Of a stretch of DNA of 64,000 nt, positions 1,167 through 55,348 are shown piece after piece. The DNA comes from a virus. Made by a program: the position numbers and the translations under genes. The notes below the pieces were generated by a model, which worked only from the letters and a program-made list of their open reading frames with translations, was not told the DNA's origin and did no database searches. Position 1 is the stretch's first letter; each line of letters begins with the position of its first letter. The stretch covers positions 124,001 through 188,000 of the IMG/VR virus record IMGVR_UViG_3300010938_000951; one strand, given 5' to 3'.

Positions 1167-1168
1167 AT

Positions 1169-1242
1169 GCTCAGGTGAATGTAATTGGTAAACATACCAG
1201 GCTTAGACCCTGGGTTTGTGGGTTCGAATCCCACCCTGAGCA
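1169..1242 (+). tRNA. tRNA with Leu anticodon (UAG), class I shape
   Basis: Acceptor GCTCAGG/CCTGAGC, A73 at 1242. The next bases are CAA, so CCA is not encoded. Anticodon stem CCAGG/CCTGG with loop CTTAGAC, anticodon TAG. The variable loop is short (class I). It closely resembles the preceding CAG tRNA in layout, suggesting tandem duplication with an anticodon change. Identity as Leu rests only on the anticodon. Confidence 0.78.
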
Positions 1243-1250
1243 CAAATAAT

Positions 1251-1334
1251 GTCACCGTGGTGGAATGGCAGACACGCTAGCTTGAGGTGCTAGTGCCGAA
1301 AGGCGTGAGGGTTCGAGTCCCTCCGGTGACACCA
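1251..1334 (+). tRNA. tRNA-Leu (GAG), class II
   Basis: 84 nt. Acceptor GTCACCG/CGGTGAC, A73, CCA encoded. Anticodon stem CTAGC/GCTAG with loop TTGAGGT, anticodon GAG (codons CUC/CUU). A long variable arm (TGCCGAAAGGCG) is present as expected for Leu. Its 3' acceptor strand GGTGA also sits at Shine-Dalgarno distance from the next ATG at 1337. Confidence 0.92.
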
Positions 1335-1336
1335 AA

Positions 1337-1969: not shown

Positions 1970-2383
1970 TTAGCTATATTTGTCAAGCAAAGCATCGCTG
2001 ACTTCAACAAATGCTTTTTTCTTACCATCTTTGCCGGGCTTCTTAGCCTTTTCAGATACTTCAATAGAAGGATACTTGGCTTTAACTTTACGAGCCACCA
2101 AATTAACTAGAGATTGTAGTGAGCCACTGTACCAGTCTGGCGCAGAAGAATATTGATTAACACGAGCTAATGCATTACGGGCCTGAGCTTCGTTATTGAT
2201 TGGAAAGTGATCTTTCTTGTCCTTGGCGCTTTCGGCAGGCACACATACCGTTCCTCTATTGCGAACCTTAGCTTTAGGATCAAGTTTCTTATCCTTTTTC
2301 TTAGCTTCGGCAACTAAAGAGTCTGTTGCTGATTTTTCAAATTCGACAGCTTGCAATAAAACTTGTTCTACGTTATTTGGCAT
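1970..2383 (-). CDS. conserved phage protein, Lys-rich, unknown function
   Basis: 137 residues from the ATG at 2383, chosen because GGGAAAAGG lies just upstream; an upstream ATG at 2410 in frame is less likely. The middle part (RGTVCVPAESAKDKKDHFPI, then NNEAQARNALARVNQYS and VKAKYPSIEV) is of a type I associate with conserved phage proteins of unknown role. It is rich in Lys and Ala at both ends with no membrane segment. It overlaps the upstream minus-strand gene by 11 bp, so the two form an operon. It converges with ogt (stops adjacent at 1969/1970). Confidence 0.75.
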   Translation of the reverse strand: MPNNVEQVLLQAVEFEKSATDSLVAEAKKKDKKLDPKAKVRNRGTVCVPAESAKDKKDHFPINNEAQARNALARVNQYSSAPDWYSGSLQSLVNLVARKVKAKYPSIEVSEKAKKPGKDGKKKAFVEVSDALLDKYS

Positions 2384-3173
2384 GGCCTTTTCCCTTTCCC
2401 TGTTTATCATGACGGCGTTTGGTTCTGCTAGGAGAATTAAGTTTTAATTCTTTTTTCCATTCAGGATATGAGCGGCCAAACACGGCTCTATCTTCGCTTT
2501 GATCGCGAATAATTACATAACCACCATCGGTCATGGTAAATGGCTTAGAAAGTTTTCCTAGCCAATCAAATTTGGCACCAGCAGGTGGGGCAGGGTCAAA
2601 CCAAGCTGGAAGTGCAAAATTGGAAACTTTAACTGGAGTTCCATCAACATCTACATCGTAATAGTCACTTTCAACTGGATCAGCTACCTCTAAAGCATAG
2701 CTCAAACCTTCATTCCAGTTATCGGCCCAATAGTTCGCTTGAGGATCCATCATAATCTCAAGAACCTCATGGGACAGCACAGTAGAAACGGGTAAATTGT
2801 ATTTTTGTGTTATCTTAACAAAAACACGACCATATGGTAATCCATCTGGGCCGTCTGAATGATAGCCTAGAGCGCCAGCAATATCGGCATCATCAAAGAT
2901 TAGAACTTTGAAGGCTCCTGGTTCGGTAGCGGCTTCTGAATCTCTATAAACTACTTTAGGTGGTTTTAAATCCCAAGTTGGAGCGGCATGCTCACGAGCC
3001 TGCCTAGCAACACCACGAGTCATCAATTCAACCTCAGCATTTGAGAGAATTGAAGATTTATTGATGACAGCAATGAGCATATTACCATCTTCTCCAAGAT
3101 TTACAGGAGGTGTTGGAGTAATTTCATTGCTGGAGGATCCGGTGAGCCAATTCCAAAATTTTTTAAAACACAT
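2373..3173 (-). CDS. putative metallopeptidase-like phage protein (HEVLE motif)
   Basis: 266 residues. After a Pro/Thr/Ser linker near residue 20, the core has LSHEVLEIMMDP around residue 135 and a later ALEVADPVESDYYD. SHEVLE followed by an acidic EVADP resembles a zinc-binding HExxE-type site, so a peptidase-like fold is inferred, not proven. The tail is very basic (SPSRTKRRHDKQGKGKGHAK). The start has an AGGA 8 nt upstream. It may be a structural or tail-associated protein; I do not recognise a named family. Confidence 0.65.
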   Translation of the reverse strand: MCFKKFWNWLTGSSSNEITPTPPVNLGEDGNMLIAVINKSSILSNAEVELMTRGVARQAREHAAPTWDLKPPKVVYRDSEAATEPGAFKVLIFDDADIAGALGYHSDGPDGLPYGRVFVKITQKYNLPVSTVLSHEVLEIMMDPQANYWADNWNEGLSYALEVADPVESDYYDVDVDGTPVKVSNFALPAWFDPAPPAGAKFDWLGKLSKPFTMTDGGYVIIRDQSEDRAVFGRSYPEWKKELKLNSPSRTKRRHDKQGKGKGHAK

Positions 3174-3205
3174 AGCGCTATCCTAAATTTTTATATTTGT
3201 TGCGG

Positions 3206-3233
3206 TTGACAAAGGTTCGTTAGAGGTTATATT
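3206..3233 (+). promoter_or_regulatory. sigma70-like promoter for the His/Glu/Arg tRNA array
   Basis: TTGACA (3206-3211), 16-nt spacer, TATATT (3228-3233). The same TTGAC-N16-TATATT layout occurs at 8439 and 49014. A second box TGATATACT (extended -10) follows at 3236-3244. It lies between the divergent minus-strand gene and the first tRNA-His. Confidence 0.7.
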
Positions 3234-3273
3234 TGTGATATACTAATAATTAGGCAATAATATTGCTACGTAT

Positions 3274-3350
3274 GGTGGACGTTTACATCTGGTGATGTTG
3301 GAAGGTTGTGACCCTTTCTAGGCTCGGTTCGAATCCGGCCGTTCACCCCA
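3274..3350 (+). tRNA. tRNA-His (GUG), with encoded G-1
   Basis: Extra 5' G (3274) opposite C73, acceptor GTGGACG/CGTTCAC, CCA encoded. Anticodon stem GAAGG/CCTTT with loop TTGTGAC, anticodon GTG. One T-stem pair (49-65) is mismatched. The G-1:C73 pair is the HisRS identity element and is encoded here rather than added. Confidence 0.92.
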
Positions 3351-3354
3351 ATAT

Positions 3355-3431
3355 GGTGAGTGTACCCGAGTGGTTTCAGGGGACTGGCTGTGACCCAGTT
3401 TACGCGGGTTCAATTCCCGTCACTCACCCCA
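3355..3431 (+). tRNA. second tRNA-His (GUG), with encoded G-1
   Basis: G-1 at 3355, acceptor GTGAGTG/CACTCAC, C73, CCA encoded. Anticodon stem ACTGG/CCAGT with loop CTGTGAC, anticodon GTG. It has the same anticodon as the preceding tRNA but a very different body, so it is not a recent duplicate. Confidence 0.9.
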
Positions 3432-3435
3432 TAAT

Positions 3436-3511
3436 GGTCCCATCATCTAATGGTTCAGGATGAGAGATTTTCACTCTCTTCATAGGGGTTCGAATCCCCT
3501 TGGGATCACCA
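3436..3511 (+). tRNA. tRNA-Glu (UUC)
   Basis: Acceptor GGTCCCA/TGGGATC (one G-U pair), A73, CCA encoded. Anticodon stem AGAGA/TCTCT with loop TTTTCAC, anticodon TTC. T-arm AGGGG/CCCCT. Confidence 0.92.
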
Positions 3512-3527
3512 ATCTTTACATAGAAAG

Positions 3528-3710
3528 TTGATTGTGAGATATTTATTTGTATTACTTTTAAGTGGATGCATTTTCAATCATCCACAATACTGTCATACTA
3601 ATGGTGATTGTTTAATGGGACAATATTGTCCGACAGTGAGAGATCCCTCTCAACCTCCTGATATTTGTAAAGGTAAGGCGATTATTAACCATAATATTTT
3701 AGCTGACTAA
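3528..3710 (+). CDS. small Cys-rich lipoprotein
   Basis: 60 residues from a TTG at 3528 (AGAAAG just upstream); a GTG at 3534 is an alternative start. The N-terminus is a lipoprotein signal peptide: a hydrophobic run LFVLLL ending in the lipobox LSGC. The mature part is Cys-rich (YCHTNGDCLMGQYCP), a spacing like EB/EGF-type extracellular modules. It should be lipid-anchored in the host envelope. Small phage lipoproteins such as T5 Llp block receptors and exclude superinfecting phage; such a role here is inference. It sits inside the tRNA array. Confidence 0.6.
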   Translation: MIVRYLFVLLLSGCIFNHPQYCHTNGDCLMGQYCPTVRDPSQPPDICKGKAIINHNILAD

Positions 3711-3719
3711 CTGCCAATA

Positions 3720-3731
3720 TTGTGATATAAT
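3720..3731 (+). promoter_or_regulatory. extended -10 promoter-like box before tRNA-Glu(CUC)
   Basis: TGTGATATAAT with TATAAT at 3726-3731, 10 nt upstream of the tRNA at 3742. No convincing -35 is seen. It would start transcription just before the second part of the array. Confidence 0.45.
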
Positions 3732-3741
3732 AGAAGTAAAT

Positions 3742-3817
3742 GGCCCATTCGTCTAATGGTTTAGGACGGCAGCCTCTCACGTTGCTAATACGGGTTCGAA
3801 TCCCGTATGGGTCGCCA
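3742..3817 (+). tRNA. tRNA-Glu (CUC)
   Basis: Acceptor GGCCCAT/ATGGGTC, G73, CCA encoded. Anticodon stem GCAGC/GTTGC with loop CTCTCAC, anticodon CTC (codon GAG). It complements the UUC tRNA-Glu upstream. Confidence 0.9.
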
Positions 3818-3821
3818 TAAT

Positions 3822-3897
3822 GCCCCAGTAGTCTAATGGAAAGGCAGCGGTCTTCTAAGCCGTATACATGTTGGTTCGAGTCCAATCTGGGGTGCCA
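3822..3897 (+). tRNA. tRNA-Arg (UCU)
   Basis: Acceptor GCCCCAG/CTGGGGT (G1-U72), G73, CCA encoded. Anticodon stem GCGGT/GCCGT with loop CTTCTAA, anticodon TCT (codons AGA/AGG). Confidence 0.91.
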
Positions 3898-3910
3898 AGT
3901 AAGTAGTTAT

Positions 3911-3986
3911 GCGTCTGTAATTCAATGGATAGAAATTCTGCCTTCTAAGCAGAAAGTTGGGGGTTCGAGTCCCTCCAGACGTGCCA
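3911..3986 (+). tRNA. second tRNA-Arg (UCU)
   Basis: Acceptor GCGTCTG/CAGACGT (G1-U72), G73, CCA encoded. Anticodon stem TCTGC/GCAGA with loop CTTCTAA, anticodon TCT. Same anticodon loop as the preceding tRNA with different stems. Confidence 0.91.
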
Positions 3987-3989
3987 AAT

Positions 3990-4073
3990 GTCACTGTAAC
4001 CTAATGGAGAGGTATCGGTCTACGAAACCGAAGCGCAAGCTAAATGCAGGTTCGAATCCTGCCAGTGACGCCA
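3990..4073 (+). tRNA. tRNA-Arg (ACG) with long variable arm
   Basis: 84 nt. Acceptor GTCACTG/CAGTGAC, G73, CCA encoded. Anticodon stem TCGGT/ACCGA with loop CTACGAA, anticodon ACG. Between the anticodon stem and T-stem GCAGG/CCTGC lie 14 nt that fold as AGC-GCAA-GCT. This class II-like arm is unusual for an Arg tRNA. Confidence 0.85.
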
Positions 4074-4079
4074 AATAAT

Positions 4080-4156
4080 CTGCCTGTAGCTCAACTGGAT
4101 AGAGCATCAGTCTACGAAACTGAAGGTTGTCGGTTCGACTCCGACCAGGCAGGCCA
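4080..4156 (+). tRNA. tRNA-Arg (ACG), normal class I
   Basis: Acceptor CTGCCTG/CAGGCAG, G73, CCA encoded. D-stem GCTC/GAGC. Anticodon stem TCAGT/ACTGA with loop CTACGAA, anticodon ACG. A34 would need conversion to inosine (host TadA) to read CGU/CGC/CGA. Confidence 0.92.
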
Positions 4157-4168
4157 AAGAGGTAAGTT

Positions 4169-4300
4169 ATGGAAGATCGTCATGCAAGACAAATTGCCGA
4201 AGCAATTAAATCAGCAGGTAGTATGATTGCGTTTGCAATTTGGATGGGTGCCGTATGGGTTGGTTGTACAATGCAGATGGCCTCTTCTATGCACCACTAA
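4169..4300 (+). CDS. 43-residue single-pass membrane mini-protein
   Basis: ATG at 4169 has GAGGT 6-7 nt upstream. The first 18 residues are a charged, helical segment (EDRHARQIAEAIKSAG). They are followed by a hydrophobic stretch MIAFAIWMGAVWVGC, then a short Met/His-rich tail. One membrane segment is predicted. It lies between two Arg tRNAs. Function unknown. Confidence 0.6.
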   Translation: MEDRHARQIAEAIKSAGSMIAFAIWMGAVWVGCTMQMASSMHH

Positions 4301-4307
4301 AATTTAT

Positions 4308-4382
4308 GTCCCTATAGTGAAAAGGATATCACGATTGTCTTCGAAACAATCAGTACAGGTTCGAGTCCTGTTGGGGATACCA
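4308..4382 (+). tRNA. tRNA-Arg (UCG)
   Basis: Acceptor GTCCCTA/TGGGGAT (with G-U pairs), A73, CCA encoded. Anticodon stem ATTGT/ACAAT with loop CTTCGAA, anticodon TCG (codon CGA). Last tRNA of the first array, followed 2 nt later by a terminator. Confidence 0.9.
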
Positions 4383-15851: not shown

Positions 15852-16790
15852 ATGTCAAAGAGAGTTAATTGGGCAATTACCGATAATAATGTTTCGGTGA
15901 ATTATGATGGCGAGTCTCATATTGTACCTCGCCAAGATGCATTAGCCGATCGTTTGATTAAGGCAATCAAAGAGAATCGACTACAAGAGATCCCCGCTCT
16001 TGTTTCGGCGGCTAAGCGCATTGAGATTTTTTCCAAGGGCAACTTCAAGGTAGAGAATGGTCAAGTTTTGGTTAATGGTGTGGCTGCGCCTCATGCATTG
16101 AGCAATAAGATCATCCGCTTCTCGAATGATGGTCTTCCGTTCCAACCTTTGGTTAAGTTTGCTGAAAACTTGCAGAAGAACCCATCATTCCGTGCTGTAA
16201 ATGAGCTGTTTACCTTCTTAGAGAAGAATGACCACCCAATCACGGAAAATGGCAACTTCATTGCGTATAAACGTGTTCGTTCTACTTTCAAGGATATTCA
16301 CAGCAATACCATGGATAATTCCGTTGGTAAAACTGTAGAGATTCCTCGTAACCAAGTGGATGAAGACTCCAACCGTACCTGTAGCCATGGTCTACACGTT
16401 GCTAACTGGGACTATGCTCATTTGCATTTTGCTAGTTCTGATGCAGCAACTGACGTCATGTTAGAGGTCGAAGTCAATCCGGCCGATGTAGTTGCAATTC
16501 CGGTTGACTACAACAATTCAAAAATGCGTGTTTGCAAGTACAAGGTTTTGGGTGTGGTAACTACTCCATATGAACCAAGCCGGGCCCTTCGAGTTGTTGA
16601 TGAGTCGTACAACCCTTCTGAAGAGTTTGATGAGCTATCAGAGGAAGAAGAGGAGTCATGCGAATATTGTGGAGAAGAGGTATATGATGGTGGGCGCCTC
16701 TGTACCGAATGTGATTACGATGAGGAGCATGACGAAGAGGATGATGAGGAAGACGATCGTTATCCTTACGAAGACGAAATCGAGGAATAA
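15852..16790 (+). CDS. rIIB: RIIB-like protein with acidic zinc-binding tail
   Basis: 312 residues. The core (LEKNDHPITENGNFIAYKRV, FKDIHSNTMDNSVGKTVE, PRNQVDEDSNRTCSHGLHV, NPADVVAIPVDYNNSKMRVC) is the T4 rIIB pattern. The C-terminal 60 residues are very acidic and carry CEYC and CTEC, a likely zinc ribbon. Strong SD (TAGGAGAT). Its TAA overlaps the purA ATG by one base. It probably acts with the upstream rIIA product. Confidence 0.87.
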   Translation: MSKRVNWAITDNNVSVNYDGESHIVPRQDALADRLIKAIKENRLQEIPALVSAAKRIEIFSKGNFKVENGQVLVNGVAAPHALSNKIIRFSNDGLPFQPLVKFAENLQKNPSFRAVNELFTFLEKNDHPITENGNFIAYKRVRSTFKDIHSNTMDNSVGKTVEIPRNQVDEDSNRTCSHGLHVANWDYAHLHFASSDAATDVMLEVEVNPADVVAIPVDYNNSKMRVCKYKVLGVVTTPYEPSRALRVVDESYNPSEEFDELSEEEEESCEYCGEEVYDGGRLCTECDYDEEHDEEDDEEDDRYPYEDEIEE

Positions 16791-17932
16791 TGCCAAATAT
16801 TGCAGTCCTAGGTGCTATGTGGGGAGACGAGGGTAAAGGGCATATTACCCATCGTCTCTCTCGTGATTATGATTGGGTCATTCGCTTCAACGGTGGCGCT
16901 AATGCCGGCCACACTATTTATCGAGATGGAAAGAAGTTTGTTCACAATTTACTTCCATCAGTAGATTTTAGAGTTCCACACGTCAAAGCCTATCTGGGAT
17001 CAGGTATGGTGATTGATCTAGCGAAACTCAGAGATGAAGTAGTTGAGGCAGATAAATCATATCCTGGGGTTGGCAGTCGTATTTTCGTTGATCATGACGC
17101 TTTCATTGTTGAAGCAAAGCACAAAGAGGAAGATAAATTAGCTAATAGCCATATAGGATCCACTAATAGAGGAATTGGACCAGCCTACAAAGATAAAATT
17201 TCTCGTGCTGGAAAACGAATAGGCGATTTAATTTTCGGCGATGATAATCAATTAGTAAATGAGTATTATGCCATTGTTAATGAGCTAATGTGTTTGGGCG
17301 TAAATTTCACAACTGTTTTACAGTTAGAGGGTCACTTTAAATCAAGCAATCTTTTATTTGAAGGTGCCCAGGGCGTTCTTTTAGATATTAATCACGGCAT
17401 CTATCCTTATGTTAGTTGTAGTGATGCAACAATTGGAGGTATTATTGCTTCTGGTTTTGCTTTTGCCAAATTAGATAAAGTGTATGGTGTAGCCAAATGC
17501 TATACAACCAAAGTTGGGGAAGGCCCATTTCCTACTGAAATTCATGGTGTAGCAGCCGATGATTTAAGGAAGATGGGTAATGAGTTTGGTGCCACCACAG
17601 GGCGTCCAAGACGTGTTGGGTGGTTAGATTTGCCAGCTTTACAATATGCTTGTAAAAAGGGCGGAATTACCCATCTCATCTTAACCAAATTTGATATTCT
17701 GAATGGTTTAGCTAAAGTTCCAATTTGTTTGCATTATGAATATGCTCCAACGCGCTCGTTTGACTTTTTTACAGCCCGCCCACAAATTTCTATGGTGGAT
17801 GGCTGGAATGATGCTAAACAGCCAGTTCAGCTTGAGAAATTTATCAAGTTGATTGAATCGGTTGTACAGGTCCCCGTAGAATATATTTCTTGTGGAACTG
17901 AAGAGTCCGACATCATGGACTGGGCAGCCTGA
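16790..17932 (+). CDS. purA: adenylosuccinate synthetase (PurA family)
   Basis: 380 residues. WGDEGKG has D13 and H41 sits in NAGHTIY, the two residues that act on IMP and GTP in PurA. Further blocks: TNRGIGPAYKDKISR, EGAQGVLLDINHGIYPYVS, TKVGEGPFPTE, GNEFGATTGRPRRVGWLD. It couples GTP hydrolysis to joining IMP and aspartate in AMP synthesis. Phage homologues include PurZ of Z-genome phages, in which the D13 equivalent is replaced; here D13 is intact, so the canonical reaction is favoured. Length is between archaeal (about 340) and bacterial (about 430) forms. Confidence 0.92.
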   Translation: MPNIAVLGAMWGDEGKGHITHRLSRDYDWVIRFNGGANAGHTIYRDGKKFVHNLLPSVDFRVPHVKAYLGSGMVIDLAKLRDEVVEADKSYPGVGSRIFVDHDAFIVEAKHKEEDKLANSHIGSTNRGIGPAYKDKISRAGKRIGDLIFGDDNQLVNEYYAIVNELMCLGVNFTTVLQLEGHFKSSNLLFEGAQGVLLDINHGIYPYVSCSDATIGGIIASGFAFAKLDKVYGVAKCYTTKVGEGPFPTEIHGVAADDLRKMGNEFGATTGRPRRVGWLDLPALQYACKKGGITHLILTKFDILNGLAKVPICLHYEYAPTRSFDFFTARPQISMVDGWNDAKQPVQLEKFIKLIESVVQVPVEYISCGTEESDIMDWAA

Positions 17933-40936: not shown

Positions 40937-41555
40937 TCTTTTTCTCCAGTTTTCTAGCAGGAACCCCTACATATATCCCACTTTCTACTATATCTTTTGA
41001 CACACAAGCGCTGGCCCCAATAGTTACATCGCTACAAATAGAGATATCTTCTACTGTTGAAGAGTTAGTTCCCATATATACTTTATCTCCGGCTATAACT
41101 TTTCCACTAACATGAACACCAGGAGCAGTAGTAAAAAAATCACCAGTTTGAACATCATGACCAATAGTTGTGGCCAAATTAAGTTGAGCAAAATTGCCCA
41201 TTTTAATATCACATGTTAAAATGCAGTTAGCGCAAATTACCGAACCATATCCCACTACAATAGTGGGATCCATTAAATTGGCCTTTGGATGAACTAAAGT
41301 TGCAAACACTTCTAGTCCATGAGTTTCAATAATGTTTTTAACAATTTTTTCTCGTAATTTGGGGCTACCAACAGCTACAACAGCTAAGTGTTGAGATGGA
41401 TCAAAATAATTTTCATCTTTAACTGGTGTGCCATGATAGTCTTCACCAGCATGGATATCAATGAAAGCGTCAACTACATATCCACATTGTTGAGCTAACC
41501 AAAATACTTCTTTAGCAAAGCCGCCAGCCCCAAAGATACAAATAGTTTTAGACAT
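40929..41555 (-). CDS. sugar O/N-acyltransferase, PglD/NeuD/PerB-like
   Basis: 208 residues. N-terminal Rossmann-like FGAGGFAKEVFWLA, then a left-handed beta helix of hexapeptide repeats (VVGYGSVICANCILTCDIKM, FTTAPGVHVSGKV) ending in VGVPARKLEKK. The family acetylates amino or hydroxyl groups on UDP/GDP sugars. Next to the perosamine synthase it may make GDP-N-acetylperosamine (PerB role); this is inference. Confidence 0.85.
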   Translation of the reverse strand: MSKTICIFGAGGFAKEVFWLAQQCGYVVDAFIDIHAGEDYHGTPVKDENYFDPSQHLAVVAVGSPKLREKIVKNIIETHGLEVFATLVHPKANLMDPTIVVGYGSVICANCILTCDIKMGNFAQLNLATTIGHDVQTGDFFTTAPGVHVSGKVIAGDKVYMGTNSSTVEDISICSDVTIGASACVSKDIVESGIYVGVPARKLEKKNG

Positions 41556-43032: not shown

Positions 43033-43989
43033 TTACACCAAATGAATTAAATTAGTCATATGCAATAACTCTATGACTCTTGAAGTAAATGTATGTTCTT
43101 TAAGAACTCGTTGATAGCCATTCATACCAACTTGTTTAGCGATATCTGGATTTGCTTTACAATAATTAACAATATCAACTATTTCTTTAGTTGAGCGCGC
43201 AATGAATATTTCTTTACCTTCAATAAAATAACTTTCAAATCCTGGGAAGTGCCATGAAATAGTTGGTCGGCCAGACGCCATACAGGCCAATAATCTGTCT
43301 GAAAAATAATGTGACACACTATTAAAATTACTAATGCTTAACGTACAGACGCTTTGGTTATAGATTTCGTTTGCCATGTACGGAGCTACTGTCGGTGCGG
43401 GCGGCACATATCCAGATCCAAAAAGACCAAAACTTGTACCAAACATACTTCTAAGGGTGTCTACTACTCCAACTCTTAAACTACCATCAGGAAATGTATG
43501 GCCATAATTGTTTGCTAAGAAACTAACATCATATTTGTGAGTTTCTAAATTCATGGGAAAATGTGCTTTAGGATTATACCCAATTTGCCAATACTTAACG
43601 TTATGACAGCCTGCCGCTTTATACATTTCTAATTGACCAGTACTAGAGATAAGAGAGTAATCTACTACATTAGTAATATTTGTAAATTGTGCTTGTGCTT
43701 GTGCTCTAACGTCGCCTGTCCAATTAGTGATTATCACTCCTGGTGAAAGATTGCGGGCCTCTTGTATAATGCTAGCATCTATAATACCAGTGAATTGAAG
43801 CTGCATATGAATTAAATGTGGTTGTAGATTTCTTACTTTTGATAAGAACTCATTATTTACCACTCCCTTGCTGTGTGTTCTGTCCCATAATCCAACAAAA
43901 TCAAATACATCAAGTTTCACGCCAACATTTTCAAAAGCGTCTACCATTCCTGGTTGGCTGCCAATTGGCAAGTAAAGTACTCTTAACAT
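43033..43989 (-). CDS. GT-B glycosyltransferase (GT1/GT4-like)
   Basis: 318 residues. N-terminal strand MLRVLYLPIG, later HLIHMQLQFTG, and C-terminal SDRLLACMASGRPTISWHFP with EIVDIVNYCKANPDIAKQVG, the pattern of spore-maturation CgeB-like/GT4 glycosyltransferases. Overlaps the upstream gene by one base. Confidence 0.78.
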   Translation of the reverse strand: MLRVLYLPIGSQPGMVDAFENVGVKLDVFDFVGLWDRTHSKGVVNNEFLSKVRNLQPHLIHMQLQFTGIIDASIIQEARNLSPGVIITNWTGDVRAQAQAQFTNITNVVDYSLISSTGQLEMYKAAGCHNVKYWQIGYNPKAHFPMNLETHKYDVSFLANNYGHTFPDGSLRVGVVDTLRSMFGTSFGLFGSGYVPPAPTVAPYMANEIYNQSVCTLSISNFNSVSHYFSDRLLACMASGRPTISWHFPGFESYFIEGKEIFIARSTKEIVDIVNYCKANPDIAKQVGMNGYQRVLKEHTFTSRVIELLHMTNLIHLV

Positions 43990-49054: not shown

Positions 49055-49128
49055 GCTGGCTTAGTATAATGGTATTATTCCGCCCTTGTAACGCGGAGAA
49101 CCGAGTTCGATTCTCGGCGCCAGCTCCA
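49055..49128 (+). tRNA. tRNA-Thr (UGU)
   Basis: Acceptor GCTGGCT/CGCCAGC (last pair mismatched), U73, CCA encoded. Loop CTTGTAA, anticodon TGT (codon ACA). The anticodon stem CCGCC/CGCGG has a C31-C39 mismatch. Confidence 0.88.
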
Positions 49129-49141
49129 AATAGAGTAATAA

Positions 49142-49216
49142 GCCCACGTAGTATAACGGTTATTACCCGTCTTTGGTAAAGACGAAAATTGAGTTCGACT
49201 CTCAACTTGGGCTCCA
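49142..49216 (+). tRNA. tRNA-Thr (GGU)
   Basis: Acceptor GCCCACG/CTTGGGC, U73, CCA encoded. Anticodon stem CGTCT/AGACG with loop TTGGTAA, anticodon GGT (codons ACC/ACU). Confidence 0.9.
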
Positions 49217-49219
49217 TAG

Positions 49220-49294
49220 GCTGATTTAGTATAACGGCTATTACCCCGCCCTAGTAACGCGGAAATGAGGGTTCAATTCCCCCAATCAGCTCCA
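49220..49294 (+). tRNA. tRNA-Thr (AGU)
   Basis: Acceptor GCTGATT/AATCAGC perfect, U73, CCA encoded. Loop CTAGTAA, anticodon AGT. Anticodon stem CCGCC/CGCGG with C31-C39 mismatch. Confidence 0.88.
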
Positions 49295-49299
49295 GGCTA

Positions 49300-49377
49300 G
49301 CCACTATAGCTCAGATTTTGGTAGAGCAGTTCTATCGAGGGGACAGGCCGCGGGTTCAAGTCCCGTTAGTGGCTCCA
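49300..49377 (+). tRNA. tRNA of uncertain identity (possible CGA anticodon)
   Basis: Acceptor GCCACTA/TAGTGGC, D-stem GCTC/GAGC and T-arm GCGGG/CCCGT are sound; U73 and CCA encoded. The anticodon arm GTTCT-ATCGAGG-GGACA pairs poorly. With normal numbering the anticodon is CGA (Ser UCG), but the short variable loop is not that of a Ser tRNA. Identity left open. Confidence 0.65.
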
Positions 49378-49382
49378 AATAG

Positions 49383-49456
49383 GCTGATATCGTATAGTGG
49401 AATTACGCTGCCCTCGTAACGCAGACACATGAGTTCGATTCTCATTATCAGCTCCA
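49383..49456 (+). tRNA. tRNA-Thr (CGU)
   Basis: Acceptor GCTGATA/TATCAGC, U73, CCA encoded. Loop CTCGTAA, anticodon CGT (codon ACG). Anticodon stem CTGCC/CGCAG, again with C31-C39 mismatch. Confidence 0.88.
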
Positions 49457-49457
49457 A

Positions 49458-49483
49458 AGCTCCGCAAGGGGCTATTTTTATTT
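49458..49483 (+). terminator. Rho-independent terminator of Thr tRNA array
   Basis: Stem AGCTCC/GGGGCT (one G-U) with GCAA loop followed by ATTTTTATTT, starting 1 nt after the last CCA. Confidence 0.82.
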
Positions 49484-49493
49484 GAGAGGTTTC

Positions 49494-49724
49494 ATGATTC
49501 CTTTTGAAAGAGTTGCGGAGTGTATTCGTAAATTACAGGCCGTAGCTAATGTAGAAACTGATGCGGCTAAAAAGCGACTTTATTTAGATATTTGTAAAGG
49601 TTTACAAATGGAATATGATTCCATTGTTAAGCATAATGTATCATGTCCGCCAGAGATGGAAGAATCTGTAGATAAGTCTCTAAAACTTATTGAAGATTTG
49701 TACGATAAAAAGGCATGTAATTGA
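49494..49724 (+). CDS. hypothetical helical protein
   Basis: 76 residues from ATG 49494 (GAGAGGT at ideal distance). Helical: VAECIRKLQAVANVETDAAK, CPPEMEESVDKSLKLIEDLY. Not recognised. Stop TGA overlaps the next ATG. Confidence 0.65.
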   Translation: MIPFERVAECIRKLQAVANVETDAAKKRLYLDICKGLQMEYDSIVKHNVSCPPEMEESVDKSLKLIEDLYDKKACN

Positions 49725-49945
49725 TGAATAAACTACACGATGCTTTACTGATCATACTGCATTTTGGATGGAAAAAAGATTTAGGCCCTAAGGGAGATTT
49801 CATTTTTAATAAAATGTTTGAATACTCCAAGGGCGTAACTGATAATGATTTATGTAAAGAAGATTGGGATATTGTGTATTTAGTTGATACCCTTCTTGCT
49901 ACAGCAATAAAGAAACGTAATCTTAAAAATAAACTACTTAATTAA
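49724..49945 (+). CDS. hypothetical protein
   Basis: 73 residues, starting at the last base of the previous stop. KLHDALLIILHFGWKKDLGP then DWDIVYLVDTLLATAIKKRN. Not recognised. Ends 1 nt before the tmRNA gene. Confidence 0.62.
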   Translation: MNKLHDALLIILHFGWKKDLGPKGDFIFNKMFEYSKGVTDNDLCKEDWDIVYLVDTLLATAIKKRNLKNKLLN

Positions 49946-49946
49946 T

Positions 49947-50301
49947 GGGGATGACATAGATTCGACGGGGTAACGAATTATCAAAATGATACAAATCGAG
50001 GATGATTGCACCCTCGTAAATAAGCAGTTAACGTATAAATGCAAACGACAATGCATTTGCAATGGCAGCCTAACGGCACCATTCGTTCCTAGATAAGACT
50101 GCTTGAGTAATCAACGGAACGCCAACCCACAAAGCTGGTTGATGAACAGGGCTACGATGTTCAACAACAAGAATAACAGTAGATAGCCAGCCGGAGCAAA
50201 TTCTTGCAGCGTTGTTGATAACGCTAATATCAACTAAGTTTGTGAATGAATTTTGATAAGGGCATATCGCGGACTCGGCTGCAATGCCGACATCTCCACC
50301 A
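49947..50301 (+). ncRNA. ssrA: tmRNA (one-piece), tag peptide ANDNAFAMAA
   Basis: 355 nt. The 5' end GGGGATGACATAGATTCGAC is the classic tmRNA start; 5' GGGGATG pairs with CATCTCC near the 3' end, followed by A and encoded CCA. The PK1-like GAGG...CCTC region and TTAACGTATAAAT precede the resume codon GCA at 50041. The tag ORF 50041-50073 reads ANDNAFAMAA then TAA, a close analogue of E. coli ANDENYALAA. The T-arm is odd: stem TCGGC/GCCGA with a 6-nt loop TGCAAT instead of the usual TTCAAxx. It rescues stalled ribosomes and tags the product for proteolysis. Confidence 0.93.
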
Positions 50302-50310
50302 GGTGAAATA

Positions 50311-50550
50311 ATGAAACCAGCATATTCTGACAATCAATTAAATGTAAAAGTGACATTACCATTGTCTTTTGATTTTGAGAAAGTACCCGGAGTTCTTAGT
50401 GTAACTCAGGTATTTCCTAACAATCCAAAATTAGCAGGATGGTATATTGTGAATGTTGAACCAGAAAATCTAATGACAGTTAAATCTGCGTTAGAAAAAC
50501 AAGCTGGCGTTATGTCAGTAGAAAAAGTTGCACTTAGATACGCCTTATGA
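50311..50550 (+). CDS. small ferredoxin-like protein, possible I9-type fold
   Basis: 79 residues from ATG 50311 (AGGTGA 6 nt upstream), 9 nt after the tmRNA CCA. FEKVPGVLSVTQVFPNNPKL then ENLMTVKSALEKQAGVMSVE gives a beta-alpha-beta layout reminiscent of subtilisin propeptide (I9) domains. Similarity is weak. Stop overlaps the M23 gene start by ATGA. Confidence 0.55.
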   Translation: MKPAYSDNQLNVKVTLPLSFDFEKVPGVLSVTQVFPNNPKLAGWYIVNVEPENLMTVKSALEKQAGVMSVEKVALRYAL

Positions 50551-51038
50551 AATGGCCGCTTCGTGATAAGACGCCCGCAATTCCAGAATTGGAATCTGTG
50601 GGTGATTTTGCATTTAGGCGCTCTTTCTATTACCATCCTGGTGTAGATATTTATTGTAACTTTGGACAAGAAATCCAAGCCATTGAAGATGGTGAAGTTG
50701 TACATATTGAAAACTTTACTGGCCCCAATGCTAATCCTCCAAGCCCCTGGTGGTTGGAAACCTGGAGCATTCTAATTGAGGGAGCTTCTGGTGTTCTCGG
50801 TTATTGCGAAATCAAACCACTTCCACATATCAAAATTGGAGCTAAAGTTAAAGAGGGCGAACTAATTGCTACTGTTATTCCTGTCCTTAAAAAAGACAAA
50901 GGTAATGGTACGACCATGCTCCATTTTGAGCATTACGAAGCTGGAACTAGACACCATGTTACGTGGGAACTGGATACAATTAAGCCAGAAGAATTGAAAA
51001 ATTCTAGGTATTTGTTAGAAAAAATAATCGACCAATAA
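50547..51038 (+). CDS. M23-type metallopeptidase domain protein
   Basis: 163 residues. YYHPGVDIYCNFGQEIQAIE then DGEVV is the LytM/M23 zinc site (H30, D34), and LHFEHYE supplies the H-x-H. No signal peptide or membrane segment. M23 enzymes cut peptidoglycan cross-bridges; a phage enzyme would be lytic or virion-borne, but other uses of the fold exist. ATGA overlap upstream. Confidence 0.8.
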   Translation: MKWPLRDKTPAIPELESVGDFAFRRSFYYHPGVDIYCNFGQEIQAIEDGEVVHIENFTGPNANPPSPWWLETWSILIEGASGVLGYCEIKPLPHIKIGAKVKEGELIATVIPVLKKDKGNGTTMLHFEHYEAGTRHHVTWELDTIKPEELKNSRYLLEKIIDQ

Positions 51039-51043
51039 TTGGA

Positions 51044-51049
51044 TATATA
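51044..51049 (+). promoter_or_regulatory. -10-like TATATA box before the amber-containing HD gene
   Basis: GGATATATA ends 7 nt before an ATG at 51057 that is in frame with the HD gene but followed by TAG at codon 5. Same geometry as the other boxes. Confidence 0.5.
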
Positions 51050-51089
51050 AGTCACTATGAGCTATCTATAGAACCATCTAATCAGGCAA

Positions 51090-51653
51090 ATGAAAAGCTG
51101 TCCACAGACAGACAGCCAATCCGTGTATGAACACGGCGTCTCTGTTAAAGAGCATATTTTTGAATTAATTTCATTCTTGAAAACCGGAAAGATTCCTGAA
51201 GGTTGGCGATTACCCGACTGGATGAGTGAGTATCGAGAGCAGTTGTTAGCCTCCTTACTTCCAGACGATATTATCAAAGCCTACGCAGTCTTCCACGATT
51301 GTGGCAAGCCCTATTGTATCACTATTGATGAACAGGGCAGAAGGCATTTTCCTGACCACCCTGAAATATCCCATAATGTTTGGCTGTATGTTAGCAATAA
51401 CAAAACGATAGCTAAGCTAATTCTTATGGATATGAAAATTCATACTATGAAGGCAGTAGATGTTGATGAATTCTGTCAGCATCGAGAAGCCACTACTCTC
51501 CTGCTTGCAGGATTAGCTGAAGTACATAGTAATGCAAAGATGTTTGGCGGCATTGATTCTGAATCCTTCAAAATCAAATGGAGCCAAATTAATAAACGCG
51601 GTAAAGCAATTTGCCGCAAATTATTTGGAGATAAACATGTGTCTATAGGTTAA
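51090..51653 (+). CDS. HD-domain phosphohydrolase; in-frame TAG upstream
   Basis: 187 residues from ATG 51090. HD signature: H15 in SVYEHGVSVKEH, VFHDCGKP with H69/D70, then RRHFPDHPEISHNVW. HD enzymes hydrolyse phosphoesters (nucleotides, RNA ends, alarmones). An ATG at 51057 is in frame and reads M-S-Y-L-TAG-N-H-L-I-R-Q-M before the annotated ATG. If TAG is read as sense the protein gains 11 residues. The shorter form has AGG only 4 nt before its ATG. It overlaps the Pth2-like gene downstream. Confidence 0.75.
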   Translation: MKSCPQTDSQSVYEHGVSVKEHIFELISFLKTGKIPEGWRLPDWMSEYREQLLASLLPDDIIKAYAVFHDCGKPYCITIDEQGRRHFPDHPEISHNVWLYVSNNKTIAKLILMDMKIHTMKAVDVDEFCQHREATTLLLAGLAEVHSNAKMFGGIDSESFKIKWSQINKRGKAICRKLFGDKHVSIG

Positions 51654-51987
51654 AGAAGGCGATAAGCTTTATGTTATTACTCGTGCAGATTTGGAACCGG
51701 GTTATCAAGCAGTTCAGAGCATGCATGCTTTGAGACAATTCACTGCTGAACACCCTGAGATTGACAAAGTATGGTTTGAGCAATCAAACTATCTTGGGCT
51801 TCTTTCGGTGCAAAATGAACAAGAACTCATGCGGCTGCTAGAGCAAGCCAATGAGCAAGGAATTCATGCATCAGCTTTTAGAGAGCCCGATATTGATAAT
51901 CAGATGACAGCAATTGCGCTGTCACCCGGCCCTAAGTCTAAAAAGCTTTGTAGCCGATTACCACTAGCATTAAGAGGTAAACAATGA
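51637..51987 (+). CDS. peptidyl-tRNA hydrolase, PTRHD1/Pth2-like, amber at codon 4
   Basis: The conserved body reads KLYVITRADLEPGYQAVQSM, HALRQF, FREPDIDNQMTAIALSPGPK and LCSRLPLALRG, the Pth2/PTRHD layout. Pth2 frees tRNA from peptidyl-tRNA that drops off the ribosome. The only start that keeps the first beta strand is ATG 51637 (TTTGGAG at ideal spacing), but its codon 4 is TAG (51646-51648): M-C-L-TAG-V-K-E-G. A TTG at 51691 would cut off the first strand. Read-through by the CUA tRNAs 900 bp downstream would restore it; a nonsense mutation or sequencing error is the alternative. Confidence 0.72.
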
Positions 51988-52223
51988 GCGAATGGATTGA
52001 TAAAGAACGAGGCCCCGAGTGCTTCTGTGGTATGCCAACTGGCGTTTATGTTAGTGAGGATGGAAAGGCTTGGCTGATGTGTATCTTTCATGATTATGAA
52101 GCTGGAGCAATGTTTCCGCTTCCTAAAAATGGAAGACCTGACAATTGGCCTGATATTCCTCGTGATGAGCTAAACGCTCTTATGAGACGAGGCACTGAAG
52201 AAGATCAGGAAACTGAAGAATGA
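51984..52223 (+). CDS. hypothetical protein with Cys pair
   Basis: 79 residues, ATGA overlap upstream. RGPECFCGMPTGVYVSEDGK then WLMCIFHDYEAGAMFPL: two Cys (CFC) plus a later CxxxH could bind zinc. Acidic C-terminus. Not recognised. Confidence 0.63.
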   Translation: MSEWIDKERGPECFCGMPTGVYVSEDGKAWLMCIFHDYEAGAMFPLPKNGRPDNWPDIPRDELNALMRRGTEEDQETEE

Positions 52224-52537
52224 AGAAGACTAGCATTGCATCACTCAAAGAAAGGCTGGCTGGTTGGACTAGTTGGGATGGTGCTATGTATCATCTTGGC
52301 GCCTGTCTTGGATTCTGGCCCGAATTTGGAGCACCAGGAGATGCCTCAGGCCCTTTCGATCCGTGGCATGGAGTAAAGGGAACTATTTGGTCAGCTAATC
52401 CTTTGGGTGATGCAATCGGTCATTTCTTAGATTCTTTAGTTGAAGAAGGTTGTTTAGAACGAAGAGAGGAACCTGATATAGAATTCAGATGGAATCCCAA
52501 CTATAAAGGCCATGCTGACTTGATTTCAACACTTTGA
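52220..52537 (+). CDS. hypothetical protein
   Basis: 105 residues, ATGA overlap upstream. Trp/Gly-rich: AGWTSWDGAMYHLGACLGFW, then PFDPWHGVKGTIWSANPLGD. Not recognised. Ends 6 nt before the first CUA-anticodon tRNA. Confidence 0.63.
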   Translation: MKKTSIASLKERLAGWTSWDGAMYHLGACLGFWPEFGAPGDASGPFDPWHGVKGTIWSANPLGDAIGHFLDSLVEEGCLERREEPDIEFRWNPNYKGHADLISTL

Positions 52538-52543
52538 AATATT

Positions 52544-52617
52544 CCGCTCTTGGTATAGTGGCTGTGCCGCCGACTCTAAATCGGCAGAGCTGTGTTCAAA
52601 TCACAGAGAGCGGGCCA
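52544..52617 (+). tRNA. amber-suppressor-type tRNA (anticodon CUA), 1
   Basis: 74 nt. Acceptor CCGCTCT/AGAGCGG, G73, CCA encoded. Anticodon stem GCCGA/TCGGC perfect, loop CTCTAAA, anticodon CTA, which reads UAG. T-arm CTGTG/CACAG with loop TTCAAAT. G73 and the Gln-like anticodon loop are compatible with a Gln charge, but the identity cannot be decided by eye. Well folded. Confidence 0.9.
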
Positions 52618-52627
52618 AATAATATAT

Positions 52628-52699
52628 GCGCCGTTAGCTCAGTGGTAGAGCGGTCGCCTCTAAAACGAACGGTCGTGGGTTCGACCCCCACACGGCGCA
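52628..52699 (+). tRNA. amber-suppressor-type tRNA (anticodon CUA), 2
   Basis: Acceptor GCGCCGT/ACGGCGC, A73, then CAA, so CCA is not encoded. D-stem GCTC/GAGC. T-arm GTGGG/CCCAC. Anticodon loop CTCTAAA, anticodon CTA; the anticodon stem GTCGC/ACGAA has only three good pairs. The loop differs from a Trp-type loop (CTCCAAA) by one base, but identity is unknown. Same anticodon as the tRNA 10 nt upstream, different body. Confidence 0.78.
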
Positions 52700-52702
52700 C
52701 AA

Positions 52703-53179
52703 ATGATTAAAACATCACAATTCATTAAAATGTTGCAAGAAGAAGATCCAAATGATGAGTGTTATGTTTGCGTAAGCAACTACCCTGTCAAATGGATCGA
52801 AAAATTACCATACTATTATGATGGTCGTATGGAATGGGTTGAGCGTAATGAACAAGGAGATCCTATTAGAGTTGGATACCCTTCAGGCGTTCAGAAAATT
52901 AAAATTCATTATGATACCATTGAAGATGCTTTAATGGATAATCCTGATGCCGAACTAATTTTGGATGGTATTACTTACCAAGGTCAAGTTAGTGAGCGTC
53001 ATATGGAATCAATTAGAGAATGGAAAAAGGAAGGCAAAGATTTCCAAGAATGGAAACGTCTAAATGATGAGGCGTATAAAAATGGAACTGAGCCTCCCCC
53101 AATTATTATTAATTCTGAAGTGGGATCATTAAAAACCAGAATGCATCGTTGGTTAAGGGCATTGGGACTACTAAAATGA
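52703..53179 (+). CDS. hypothetical protein
   Basis: 158 residues, ATG 3 nt after the tRNA discriminator region. IKTSQFIKMLQEEDPNDECY at the start resembles small phage proteins beginning with T-x-Q-F-I-x-x-L-x-x-x-D. Acidic middle, basic C-terminal helix (KTRMHRWLRALGLLK). Not recognised. Confidence 0.66.
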   Translation: MIKTSQFIKMLQEEDPNDECYVCVSNYPVKWIEKLPYYYDGRMEWVERNEQGDPIRVGYPSGVQKIKIHYDTIEDALMDNPDAELILDGITYQGQVSERHMESIREWKKEGKDFQEWKRLNDEAYKNGTEPPPIIINSEVGSLKTRMHRWLRALGLLK

Positions 53180-53185
53180 TATATA
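53180..53185 (+). promoter_or_regulatory. -10-like TATATA box, possible leaderless start
   Basis: TGATATATA ends 7 nt before the ATG at 53193. No Shine-Dalgarno in between. Confidence 0.5.
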
Positions 53186-53192
53186 GTCTAGT

Positions 53193-53375
53193 ATGACTAA
53201 GTTTATGACCAGATTAGATATCCAGACCCGTGTTAAAACAATTCGAGAAGAATTGGAAAATAGGCATAAAACCGGCATGGTCAAAATGGCTACCGAGGAT
53301 GGTACCCCTATATCTACTGAAGACTTACAAAATGAAATGTATTCGCTAATTTATCGATTGAGCAAATTTGAATGA
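53193..53375 (+). CDS. hypothetical small protein
   Basis: 60 residues. RLDIQTRVKTIREELENRHK then MATEDGTPISTEDLQNEMYS: helical and charged. Preceded by a -10-like box only. Overlaps the HNH gene by 8 bp. Not recognised. Confidence 0.58.
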   Translation: MTKFMTRLDIQTRVKTIREELENRHKTGMVKMATEDGTPISTEDLQNEMYSLIYRLSKFE

Positions 53376-53859
53376 TTTAAAGTTAACCATCGAGCTTGTA
53401 CCTCGGACCTCATGGATGAATAATGTCCGTACTGTTCTAACTGCAAAGCAATGGAACGCTTTGAGAGGTAAAGTTGCAGATGCAGCTTGGAATGTCTGTC
53501 AAATTTGTGGTGGTGTTGGCCCCAATCATCCAGTTGAATGTCACGAGATTTGGGAATACAACGAGAAGACTAAAATTCAAAGATTAGCCGGAATGATTGC
53601 TCTTTGTCCTAATTGCCACTTGGTAAAGCATTTTGGATTTGCCAGAGTAATCGGTAAAGAAGAACAGGCTTTAAAACATTTTATGAAAGTTAATACTCTC
53701 AAAAAGAAAGAGGCAGATGCGGAAATTTCCAAGGCATTTGAAGTTTGGAGAAAACGCAGCCTGATAGATTGGGAATTAGACCTTTCCATATTAAAACAAT
53801 ACGGTATAGATGTATCTAAGATACGGAGGCCACTAATGAAACCTTGGGAGACCGAGTGA
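53368..53859 (+). CDS. HNH endonuclease
   Basis: 163 residues from a TTG at 53368 (next in-frame ATG is residue 17, after the conserved LTIELVPRTSW). CQICGG, then VECHEIWEYNEKTKIQRLAG and ALCPNCHLVKHFGFA give the HNH core with a zinc-binding C4 set. The C-terminal 70 residues are helical. Free-standing HNH proteins cut DNA; this one has no obvious intron or interrupted neighbour. Overlaps the previous ORF. Confidence 0.86.
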   Translation: MNDLKLTIELVPRTSWMNNVRTVLTAKQWNALRGKVADAAWNVCQICGGVGPNHPVECHEIWEYNEKTKIQRLAGMIALCPNCHLVKHFGFARVIGKEEQALKHFMKVNTLKKKEADAEISKAFEVWRKRSLIDWELDLSILKQYGIDVSKIRRPLMKPWETE

Positions 53860-53975
53860 GAATATCACTCTAAAAAGTCATTGCCATCTTCACCAAGAAG
53901 TAGCATTCAATATTGCCGAATGTGATGATTGTATGAAATGTTGGGTTGAGTGGCAAACTGAACAGTTGGATAAAA

Positions 53976-54314
53976 ATGAACGAAGATCCGAGAAAAGTGG
54001 GTCTCAAAAATGGATTGAGACAACTAACCATCGAACAATTACAAAGAGTCATAAACTATCCAGGCGAGATGGTTCTTGATAGCTACAATTATGAGGATGG
54101 AAAATTTTGTCCTTTAGCGGTGGCCGTTGAGCTAGATAAAACAATGATTAATCCAACCCATGAAAAAGTTTTTGATACCTTGACAAGCATGGGGTACCGT
54201 GTTTATAATACTCGCGGAATATCGGGTGAATACTATACCGCAAACCGCTTACATGATCTATTAGAGGCTGCAAAGGAAGTATTGCAGGAAAAATTAGATG
54301 AAAGCAAAGATTGA
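53976..54314 (+). CDS. hypothetical protein
   Basis: 112 residues from ATG 53976. RQLTIEQLQRVINYPGEMVL, YNYEDGKFCPLAVAVELDKT, ANRLHDLLEAAKEVLQEKLD: mixed alpha/beta. Not recognised. Another frame across 53858-54070 encodes a Cys/His-rich stretch without a start (see findings). Overlaps the next gene by 17 bp. Confidence 0.66.
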   Translation: MNEDPRKVGLKNGLRQLTIEQLQRVINYPGEMVLDSYNYEDGKFCPLAVAVELDKTMINPTHEKVFDTLTSMGYRVYNTRGISGEYYTANRLHDLLEAAKEVLQEKLDESKD

Positions 54315-54705
54315 TAAGAGACTTCAGGAAGCACTAGATAAAGCCGCAAAACAAAAAGCGGCAGAAGACAAAAAAGCTCGTGATGAAAATGAAATTGCCA
54401 GAAAAGAGCATGAAGCTTTTATTAAAAAATGGTTACCTAAAGCTCGCAAATGGATTGATGAAAAACTATTTAATCAAATTGTAGAAGCTGAAGCAAACAA
54501 TCGCCATTATATTCTACTTGGCTCTCATTATGAAGATGGTATTCCATCAGAAGCTATTTATGAAGCCGTTAAAAAAGTTAAGGGCCTCAAGGCAATTGTA
54601 AAAACTTCTCCCGTTTATGAAAATGCAGAATATGTAGGACAAAGTGAACCATCGTATTGGATTGAATGGGAATCCACTAATCCTAATGACCACAGAAATG
54701 ACTGA
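54298..54705 (+). CDS. hypothetical protein with Lys-rich helix
   Basis: 135 residues. N-terminal 45 residues are a Lys/Ala/Glu-rich helix (KIDKRLQEALDKAAKQKAAE). The rest is alpha/beta (AEANNRHYILLGSHYEDGIP, KGLKAIVKTSPVYENAEYVG). Not recognised. Confidence 0.66.
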   Translation: MKAKIDKRLQEALDKAAKQKAAEDKKARDENEIARKEHEAFIKKWLPKARKWIDEKLFNQIVEAEANNRHYILLGSHYEDGIPSEAIYEAVKKVKGLKAIVKTSPVYENAEYVGQSEPSYWIEWESTNPNDHRND

Positions 54706-54724
54706 AAGGAAACTATAAAACAGA

Positions 54725-55264
54725 ATGCAACCCAACAACCAGCAGCGTGAATATCGTACTCGTATCAATAAATATATTCGTGTTCCTCAAATCCGTGTCG
54801 TTCTAGCTGACGGCTCTAACGCAGGTATCATGAACACCTATGAAGCACTCAAAATGGCTCAAGATCAAGGTCTTGATTTGGTTGAAATTAGCCCCAAAGC
54901 ACAGCCTCCAGTCTGTAAAATTATGGACTATGGTAAATTTAAATATGAAGAGAAGAAAAAGCTTCAAGCTGCTAAAAAGAATCAACAGATTCAAGAACTT
55001 AAAGAACTAACATTCCGCCCAAATACGGATGAAAATGATTTGAAGCATAAAGTAACTCAAGCTAAAGAATTCTTGGCCGAGGGTGATAGAGTTAAATTTG
55101 CAGTACGTTTCCGTGGTCGTGAAATTGTGCACCAGGATATTGGTAAAGATAAGCTTAATTGGATTCTTCAGGAATTAAACGGTCTGGTTGCTCCTAACCC
55201 ACAGATTAGTCTTGAAGGTAAAATTATGTGGATGATCGTTTCTCCTACTAAACAAAAGTCATAA
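54725..55264 (+). CDS. infC: translation initiation factor IF-3
   Basis: 179 residues, full length (E. coli 180). N-terminal domain: GLDLVEISPKAQPPVCKIMD then YGKFKYEEKKK; basic linker; C-terminal domain: KELTFRPNTDENDLKHKVTQ, LAEGDRVKFAVRFRGREIVH. IF-3 binds the 30S subunit and checks the start codon and initiator tRNA. Bacterial infC often starts with AUU for autoregulation; this copy uses ATG, and the nearest AAGGA is 17 nt upstream, so initiation may be weak or unusual. Confidence 0.96.
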   Translation: MQPNNQQREYRTRINKYIRVPQIRVVLADGSNAGIMNTYEALKMAQDQGLDLVEISPKAQPPVCKIMDYGKFKYEEKKKLQAAKKNQQIQELKELTFRPNTDENDLKHKVTQAKEFLAEGDRVKFAVRFRGREIVHQDIGKDKLNWILQELNGLVAPNPQISLEGKIMWMIVSPTKQKS

Positions 55265-55272
55265 TAGGAGAT

Positions 55273-55348
55273 GTCCCCGTGGTCCAAGGGATGGGCACCG
55301 CACTCCTAAGGCGGCATTATGCTGGTTCGAGTCCAGCCGGGGATACCA
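55273..55348 (+). tRNA. tRNA-Arg (CCU)
   Basis: Acceptor GTCCCCG/CGGGGAT (G1-U72), A73, CCA encoded. Anticodon stem CCGCA/GGCGG (last pair A-G) with loop CTCCTAA, anticodon CCT (codon AGG). It lies 8 nt after infC and is followed by a TATATA box for the next gene. Confidence 0.88.

Follow-up and report, generated by a model that had tools for sequence, protein, structure and literature searches.

Two tandem tRNA genes with amber (CUA) anticodons are encoded on the plus strand at positions 52544-52617 (tRNA 1) and 52628-52699 (tRNA 2) of the window, i.e. the whole stretch of 64,000 nucleotides analysed here, which belongs to a 266,899-base phage record, a giant virus of bacteria. tRNA 1 carries a C1-G72 pair, G73 and an encoded CCA, and tRNA 2 carries A73. 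ARAGORN, which the initial annotation had proposed as a check, called a CTA anticodon for both genes (52544-52617 and 52628-52700), and the Rfam tRNA model (cut-off: 29 bits) matched tRNA 1 with 47.1 bits (E 6e-7) and tRNA 2 with 62.5 bits (E 4e-11), both in agreement with the tandem CUA tRNAs described in that annotation. Note, the "Pyl" label given by ARAGORN is its name for a CUA anticodon and rests on the anticodon only. The cloverleaf of tRNA 1 is paired in all stems (-31.4 kcal/mol, z -4.2), which bears out the perfect fold, the G73 and the encoded CCA read by eye, and the weaker anticodon stem ascribed to tRNA 2 is indeed interrupted by two mismatches, G27.A43 and C31.A39, in a gene that lacks an encoded CCA. 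The anticodon loop of both tRNAs reads CTCTAAA, and their bodies are indeed unlike. No clear parent tRNA emerged for either gene when they were compared with their nearest relatives among tRNAs, and patterns of the tRNA 1 anticodon arm had zero matches in the viral collection. A published tRNA-Thr with a CUA anticodon shares G27.A43 with tRNA 2, and in that case the mismatch raised UAG readthrough (PMC13092985).

Both amber tRNAs recur in the same order in a phage of 359 kb, the nearest relative, with 96% identity of the portal protein. Compared with this phage, tRNA 1 differs at 4 positions and tRNA 2 at 9; all 4 of the former and 6 of the latter are located in stems, where they form two and three compensatory pairs, respectively (five in all, pairing kept), and the remaining 3 differences of tRNA 2 fall into the T loop. 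The two mismatches of tRNA 2 and both CTCTAAA loops are identical in the relative. Since the stems co-vary, the mismatches persist and the loops stay fixed, these comparisons suggest that purifying selection, and not chance, has kept both genes as folded tRNAs that read amber codons.

Two genes on the same strand lie 0.6-1.5 kb upstream of the amber tRNAs, an HD-domain hydrolase gene directly followed by a PTH2-family peptidyl-tRNA hydrolase gene, and each is interrupted by an in-frame amber codon close to its start. The HD gene extends from 51057 to 51653 (ATG 51057-51059, stop TAA 51651-51653), begins with ATG AGC TAT CTA TAG and yields 198 amino acids if the UAG at 51069-51071 is read. The PTH2 gene extends from 51637 to 51987 (ATG 51637-51639, stop TGA 51985-51987), begins with ATG TGT CTA TAG GTT AAA and yields 116 amino acids if the UAG at 51646-51648 is read. 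A Shine-Dalgarno-like GGAG (51627-51630), read in the sequence, precedes the PTH2 start, and a motif of this kind is found before the same ATG in relatives; for the HD gene of the phage a Shine-Dalgarno motif is not clear, and several relatives have one.

The HD protein has an invariant metal motif (H26, H80, D81, H101, D125, H129) and Pfam HD was matched by 3 of 16 members of its family (best E 5e-4). Its structural model (pLDDT 93) was matched by Foldseek to 3wfq/3wfr (probability 1.00, TM 0.55-0.61, E from 2.6e-3), so that its best structural neighbour is the HD region of a tRNA A-adding enzyme, and this neighbour alone suggests a tRNA as the predicted substrate. The PTH2 product matched PF01981 with 32.9 bits (cut-off: 23), and its AF2 model, the best with a pLDDT of 94 and the four others with 66-68, resembles the A. 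fulgidus PTH 3erj (TM 0.77, E 6e-8), from which peptidyl-tRNA hydrolysis is plausibly predicted. An action on tRNA ends is therefore plausible for either protein. Parts of both are matched by PHROG 14850, in line with the existence of HD and PTH2 fusions, and relatives of PTH2 were absent from the genome collection.

The amber codons are a conserved feature of both genes. All nine clade genomes with the PTH2 gene show an ATG, one or two codons and then TAG, and this leader is retained down to a PTH2 identity of 50%. An HD start of the form ATG-(1-7 codons)-TAG is kept in 8 of 8 relatives, and the nine clade genomes that carry HD have one to six codons between ATG and stop, always as TAG and never as TAA or TGA, and nearly all HD homologs found at the PTH2 loci described below have it as well (exception: L286). 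A screen of the whole genome for conserved starts with ATG, at most 14 codons and TAG returned exactly two genes, HD and PTH2, each with 8 of 8 relatives, while the best controls with the other stops reached 5/7 (TAA) and 3/9 (TGA). The suggestion of the initial annotation that genes which need the amber tRNAs are located nearby is therefore supported by these two genes. Likewise, all 23 blocked leaders in the non-redundant, similarity-found set of 33 PTH2 loci carry TAG, never TAA or TGA; with TAG making up 25.5% of the out-of-frame stops in the whole phage, this would have a chance of about 2e-14 were the sequences independent, which they are not. A search for in-frame TAGs with at least 30 open codons upstream gave nothing convincing in the phage and missed these sites because the real TAGs sit within the first few codons. 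Columns of conserved TAGs in wrong-frame alignments were rejected as noise, bar HD, PTH2 and TAGs upstream of ordinary starts. A second in-frame TAG inside PTH2, past the leader TAG, was observed in L243/L244 (codon 29) and in a 735-kb phage (L316).

To relate the blocked genes to amber tRNAs, PTH2 loci were collected from viral contigs by protein similarity, blind to tRNAs, and CUA tRNAs were then sought within about 6 kb. The 33 non-redundant loci comprised 21 with TAG and tRNA, 2 with TAG only, 1 with tRNA only and 9 with neither, so that a CUA tRNA accompanied 21 of 23 UAG-blocked PTH2 genes vs 1 of 10 unblocked ones (Fisher p 1.3e-5, a value that ignores descent and overstates the evidence because the association clusters on the tree, where the TAG state changes at least 5 times but a single independent pair has full support). 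The relatives are for the most part metagenomic contigs, and tRNA detection was based on ARAGORN and simple patterns; the amber tRNAs of three genomes (G005, G009, G012), for example, were called by ARAGORN and missed by the strict pattern. The two non-redundant loci with TAG-PTH2 in which an amber tRNA was not detected are L264, of which 340 of 349 kb were covered, and L262, a 65-kb fragment; conversely, amber tRNAs are located beside PTH2 genes with a plain start in L281, L283 and L285. A pair of amber tRNAs at one locus had been regarded as unusual; pairs recur in many huge phages and in XacN1, and the arrangement is not unique. The amber tRNA bodies are diverse across loci, and one has a long variable arm, as would suit a gate for which the identity of the N-terminal residue inserted is of little importance.

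The same design is present in the cultured jumbo phages GAP32, CBB, BF, XbC2, ME3, Arash, pT24, XacN1 and RAS14. Public records, leaving out two mycobacteriophages as ambiguous, comprised 12 with TAG and tRNA, 2 with TAG only (LR745206 and LR756504, in which an amber tRNA was not detected), none with tRNA only and 4 with neither. The PTH2 gene starts with ATG-ACG-CAC-TAG in Serratia phage BF, ATG-GCA-CAA-TAG in Cronobacter phage GAP32, ATG-ACT-TAG in Acinetobacter phage ME3 and ATG-TTA-TAG in Salmonella phage Arash; in all four, a CUA tRNA is located no more than about 5 kb away. In Tenacibaculum phage pT24 both domains are encoded in a single fused gene in the order PTH2-HD (ATG-AAA-TAG), and in Xanthomonas phage XacN1 and Stenotrophomonas phage RAS14 in an HD-PTH2 fusion with one codon between ATG and TAG. 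Whichever the order, the fused gene has a single TAG, placed at its N-terminus. The amber tRNAs of these three phages are encoded at other genomic sites, those of XacN1 in tandem, and in XacN1 the annotated start of HD-PTH2 lies downstream of the TAG. In GAP32, BF, CBB and XbC2 the HD gene has its TAG at one shared internal site and not at the start, with coding sequence on both sides, and is annotated as separate fragments. For RaK2 and Hallingskeid, whose PTH2 lacks a blocking TAG, no CUA tRNA was found nearby and none that was convincing in a pattern scan of the whole record. Among the minor observations in this set, the PTH2 genes of the two mycobacteriophages, Myrna and LRRHood (L319, L320), start with (G/A)TG-TAG-GTG and have a CUA tRNA 130-310 bases downstream; a tRNA of phage Arash annotated as tRNA-Phe (L314:5964-6035) is called CUA by ARAGORN; and Prevotella phage Lak-B7 has a UUA-anticodon tRNA (L321:5341) about 600 bases before a PTH2 gene that has no leader TAG.

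From these results we conclude that the amber tRNAs are very likely functional suppressors, whose clients are two adjacent tRNA-maintenance genes and not the whole genome. We infer that ribosomes would start at the Shine-Dalgarno-led ATG of PTH2 and at the ATG of HD and would encounter the UAG only a few codons later. If no charged amber tRNA of the phage were available, RF1 would terminate and leave a tiny peptide only; with the charged tRNA present, the UAG would be decoded and the full HD and PTH2 enzymes would be made, the UAG being the lock on each gene start and the amber tRNA the key. Such a gate could provide timing and leak-proofing of HD and PTH2 expression, and a feed-forward gate of this kind is, in our view, the somewhat favored regulatory purpose. 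PTH2 would act on the ester bond of peptidyl- or aminoacyl-tRNA, and the targets of HD would be the 3' end or phosphate esters. With tRNA ends as the expected substrates of both products, a feedback loop between the two enzymes and the amount of charged amber tRNA could arise, and negative feedback added to the gate is conceivable, albeit with somewhat less than an even chance of being true. Whether this lock and key is widespread in nature among standard-code huge phages, as an autoregulatory loop that senses the pool of tRNAs and release factor during infection, we consider evenly balanced.

The amber codon could also belong to a regulatory mini-ORF, so that termination at the UAG is followed by reinitiation nearby, which would produce HD and PTH2, and the amber tRNA represses or tunes this process. 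The 2-7-codon leaders resemble minigenes known for peptidyl-tRNA drop-off; in addition, HD could be started internally at an in-frame ATG at 51090, six codons past the TAG, and in Myrna and LRRHood a GTG directly follows the TAG. However, there is no ATG, GTG or TTG between the TAG of PTH2 and conserved strand 1, and the codon after this TAG varies (GTT, ATT, ATC, AAC, CTG, GAA, AAT), which makes reinitiation at a fixed near-start codon unlikely. The HD codons that separate the TAG from the following ATG evolve as coding sequence in the HD frame, in which single-base codon differences across this stretch are synonymous in 106 and non-synonymous in 65 cases, compared with ratios of 59:220 and 25:245 for the remaining frames. 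Moreover, any stop would serve a mini-ORF, yet TAG alone occurs, and TAGs are also found inside HD (GAP32, BF, CBB, XbC2) and, as a second one, inside PTH2 (L243, LR756501). We therefore regard the mini-ORF as unlikely.

Less likely still is that the amber tRNAs mainly attack UAG-ended genes of the host or of rival phages by readthrough, with the gated genes being secondary. TAG stops are strongly avoided in the phage, terminating 0 of 87 ORFs of at least 300 amino acids and 10 of 327 filtered genes in a genome-wide evaluation of stop frequencies and codon-usage scores, and a tmRNA located about 2.2 kb upstream could rescue ribosomes that run past stops. Within the clade, however, the avoidance has no clear link to amber tRNAs: low use of TAG stops was also seen in relatives in which no amber tRNA was detected, with 0 of 76 in G013, which belongs to these, 7.2% in G011 and 2.8% in G008. 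For the same reason, TAG-stop avoidance was discarded as a proof of suppression. Furthermore, an attack on foreign genes leaves unexplained why a conserved UAG is found in exactly two genes, both beside the tRNAs.

The same stop frequencies, together with the CUA tRNAs, might also indicate a genome-wide reassignment of TAG, as in the code 15 phages (Lak, crAss-like), which read TAG as Gln (e.g. PMC9523058, PMC13037316), and the initial annotation had brought up such phages. This reading did not hold and appears highly improbable. No coding frame that runs across a TAG was found anywhere in the genome, the HD and PTH2 genes excepted, and the relatives are standard-code-like too, bar a few weak candidates, with few TAG stops even where an amber tRNA was not detected. 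The phage thus shares with code 15 phages an encoded CUA tRNA predicted to read UAG as an amino acid, but while TAG is a sense codon in many of their genes, it would be so here in two adjacent genes, at the start, and the rest of the genome follows the standard code. Neither a release factor nor a class-Ic tRNA synthetase was found in the phage genome.

Finally, divergent tRNAs are numerous in the phage, some of them having an anticodon loop of 8 bases, and the amber tRNAs could be by-products of anticodon drift in a 65-tRNA phage with nothing specific to do, which is contradicted by the five compensatory pairs around a fixed amber loop and by the wide recurrence beside UAG-blocked PTH2 genes, and has next to no probability.

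The proposed gate has parallels in known systems. prfB, encoding RF2, is autoregulated through an in-frame stop near its beginning, and infC through an AUU start; in all of these cases a gene for a protein with a role in translation contains an early decoding barrier, and, as in prfB, an early in-frame stop is conserved within both HD and PTH2. In contrast to prfB and infC, the barrier here would be passed by same-frame readthrough with a phage tRNA and not by frameshifting or a weak start, and the predicted products act on tRNA instead of being release or initiation factors. The pyrrolysine system (tRNAPyl/PylRS) likewise combines a dedicated amber-reading tRNA with few client genes, the methylamine methyltransferase genes, in an otherwise standard code; unlike there, the tRNA bodies here are ordinary and very diverse, and the UAG is N-terminal and not in the active site, so that any residue would seem to be enough. 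An engineered feed-forward "leak dampener" also needs a suppressor tRNA before genes with in-frame stops can be translated (PMC7969014); that circuit is man-made, whereas the arrangement described here is natural and conserved.

Amber suppressor tRNAs have been reported in several phages, including RsoM2USA (PMC8504454). The authors of the XacN1 study, a phage with a pair of them like the one analysed here, described two CUA suppressor tRNAs and modelled readthrough of 18 amber stops in silico, with no target found (PMC5852040); for Summit, a target gene of the amber suppressor tRNA was not found either (PMC9022506), and a 2025 study of crAss-like phages asks about the role of an apparently unused TAG tRNA (PMC12386605). 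By focusing on gene starts we found the UAG-blocked HD-PTH2 gene in XacN1, and, judging from sequence, we propose it as the target of the XacN1 suppressor tRNAs. The blocked genes are hence a candidate answer to the puzzle of amber suppressor tRNAs in standard-code phages, with a target that is conserved across jumbo phages of several hosts, cultured phages included. If true, gene expression gated by a suppressor tRNA would have a natural example, which would link a phage code change to the control of tRNA quality. To our knowledge, based on the open-access literature, such gated expression has so far been confined to synthetic biology. The results also call for a correction of annotations, namely of the HD fragments in GAP32, BF, CBB and XbC2 and of the true HD and PTH2 starts that were missed.

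The phage encodes 65 tRNA genes and a tmRNA in total, of which the tRNA genes of the window are located at 839-4382 and 49055-55348. Many amino acids (His, Asp, Asn, Phe, Ile, Arg and others) are served by two tRNAs with the same anticodon and unlike bodies. Three further tRNAs with odd anticodon loops (window 49300-49377, phage 41327-41403 and 43345-43419) could not be assigned by ARAGORN, and the one at phage position 41327 has an 8-base anticodon loop, CTTTAACT, which could read UAA or four bases. The tmRNA (window 49947-50301) is complete, scores 114.9 bits with Rfam and encodes a tag that reads ANDNAFAMAA in the sequence; several relatives, too, have a tmRNA upstream of their PTH2/amber locus. 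In addition, the window harbors a full-length phage translation initiation factor IF-3 (54725-55264) and, adjoining rIIA/rIIB homologs, a match to the phage 2-aminooxy adenylosuccinate synthetase family (PurZ-like; 16790-17932).
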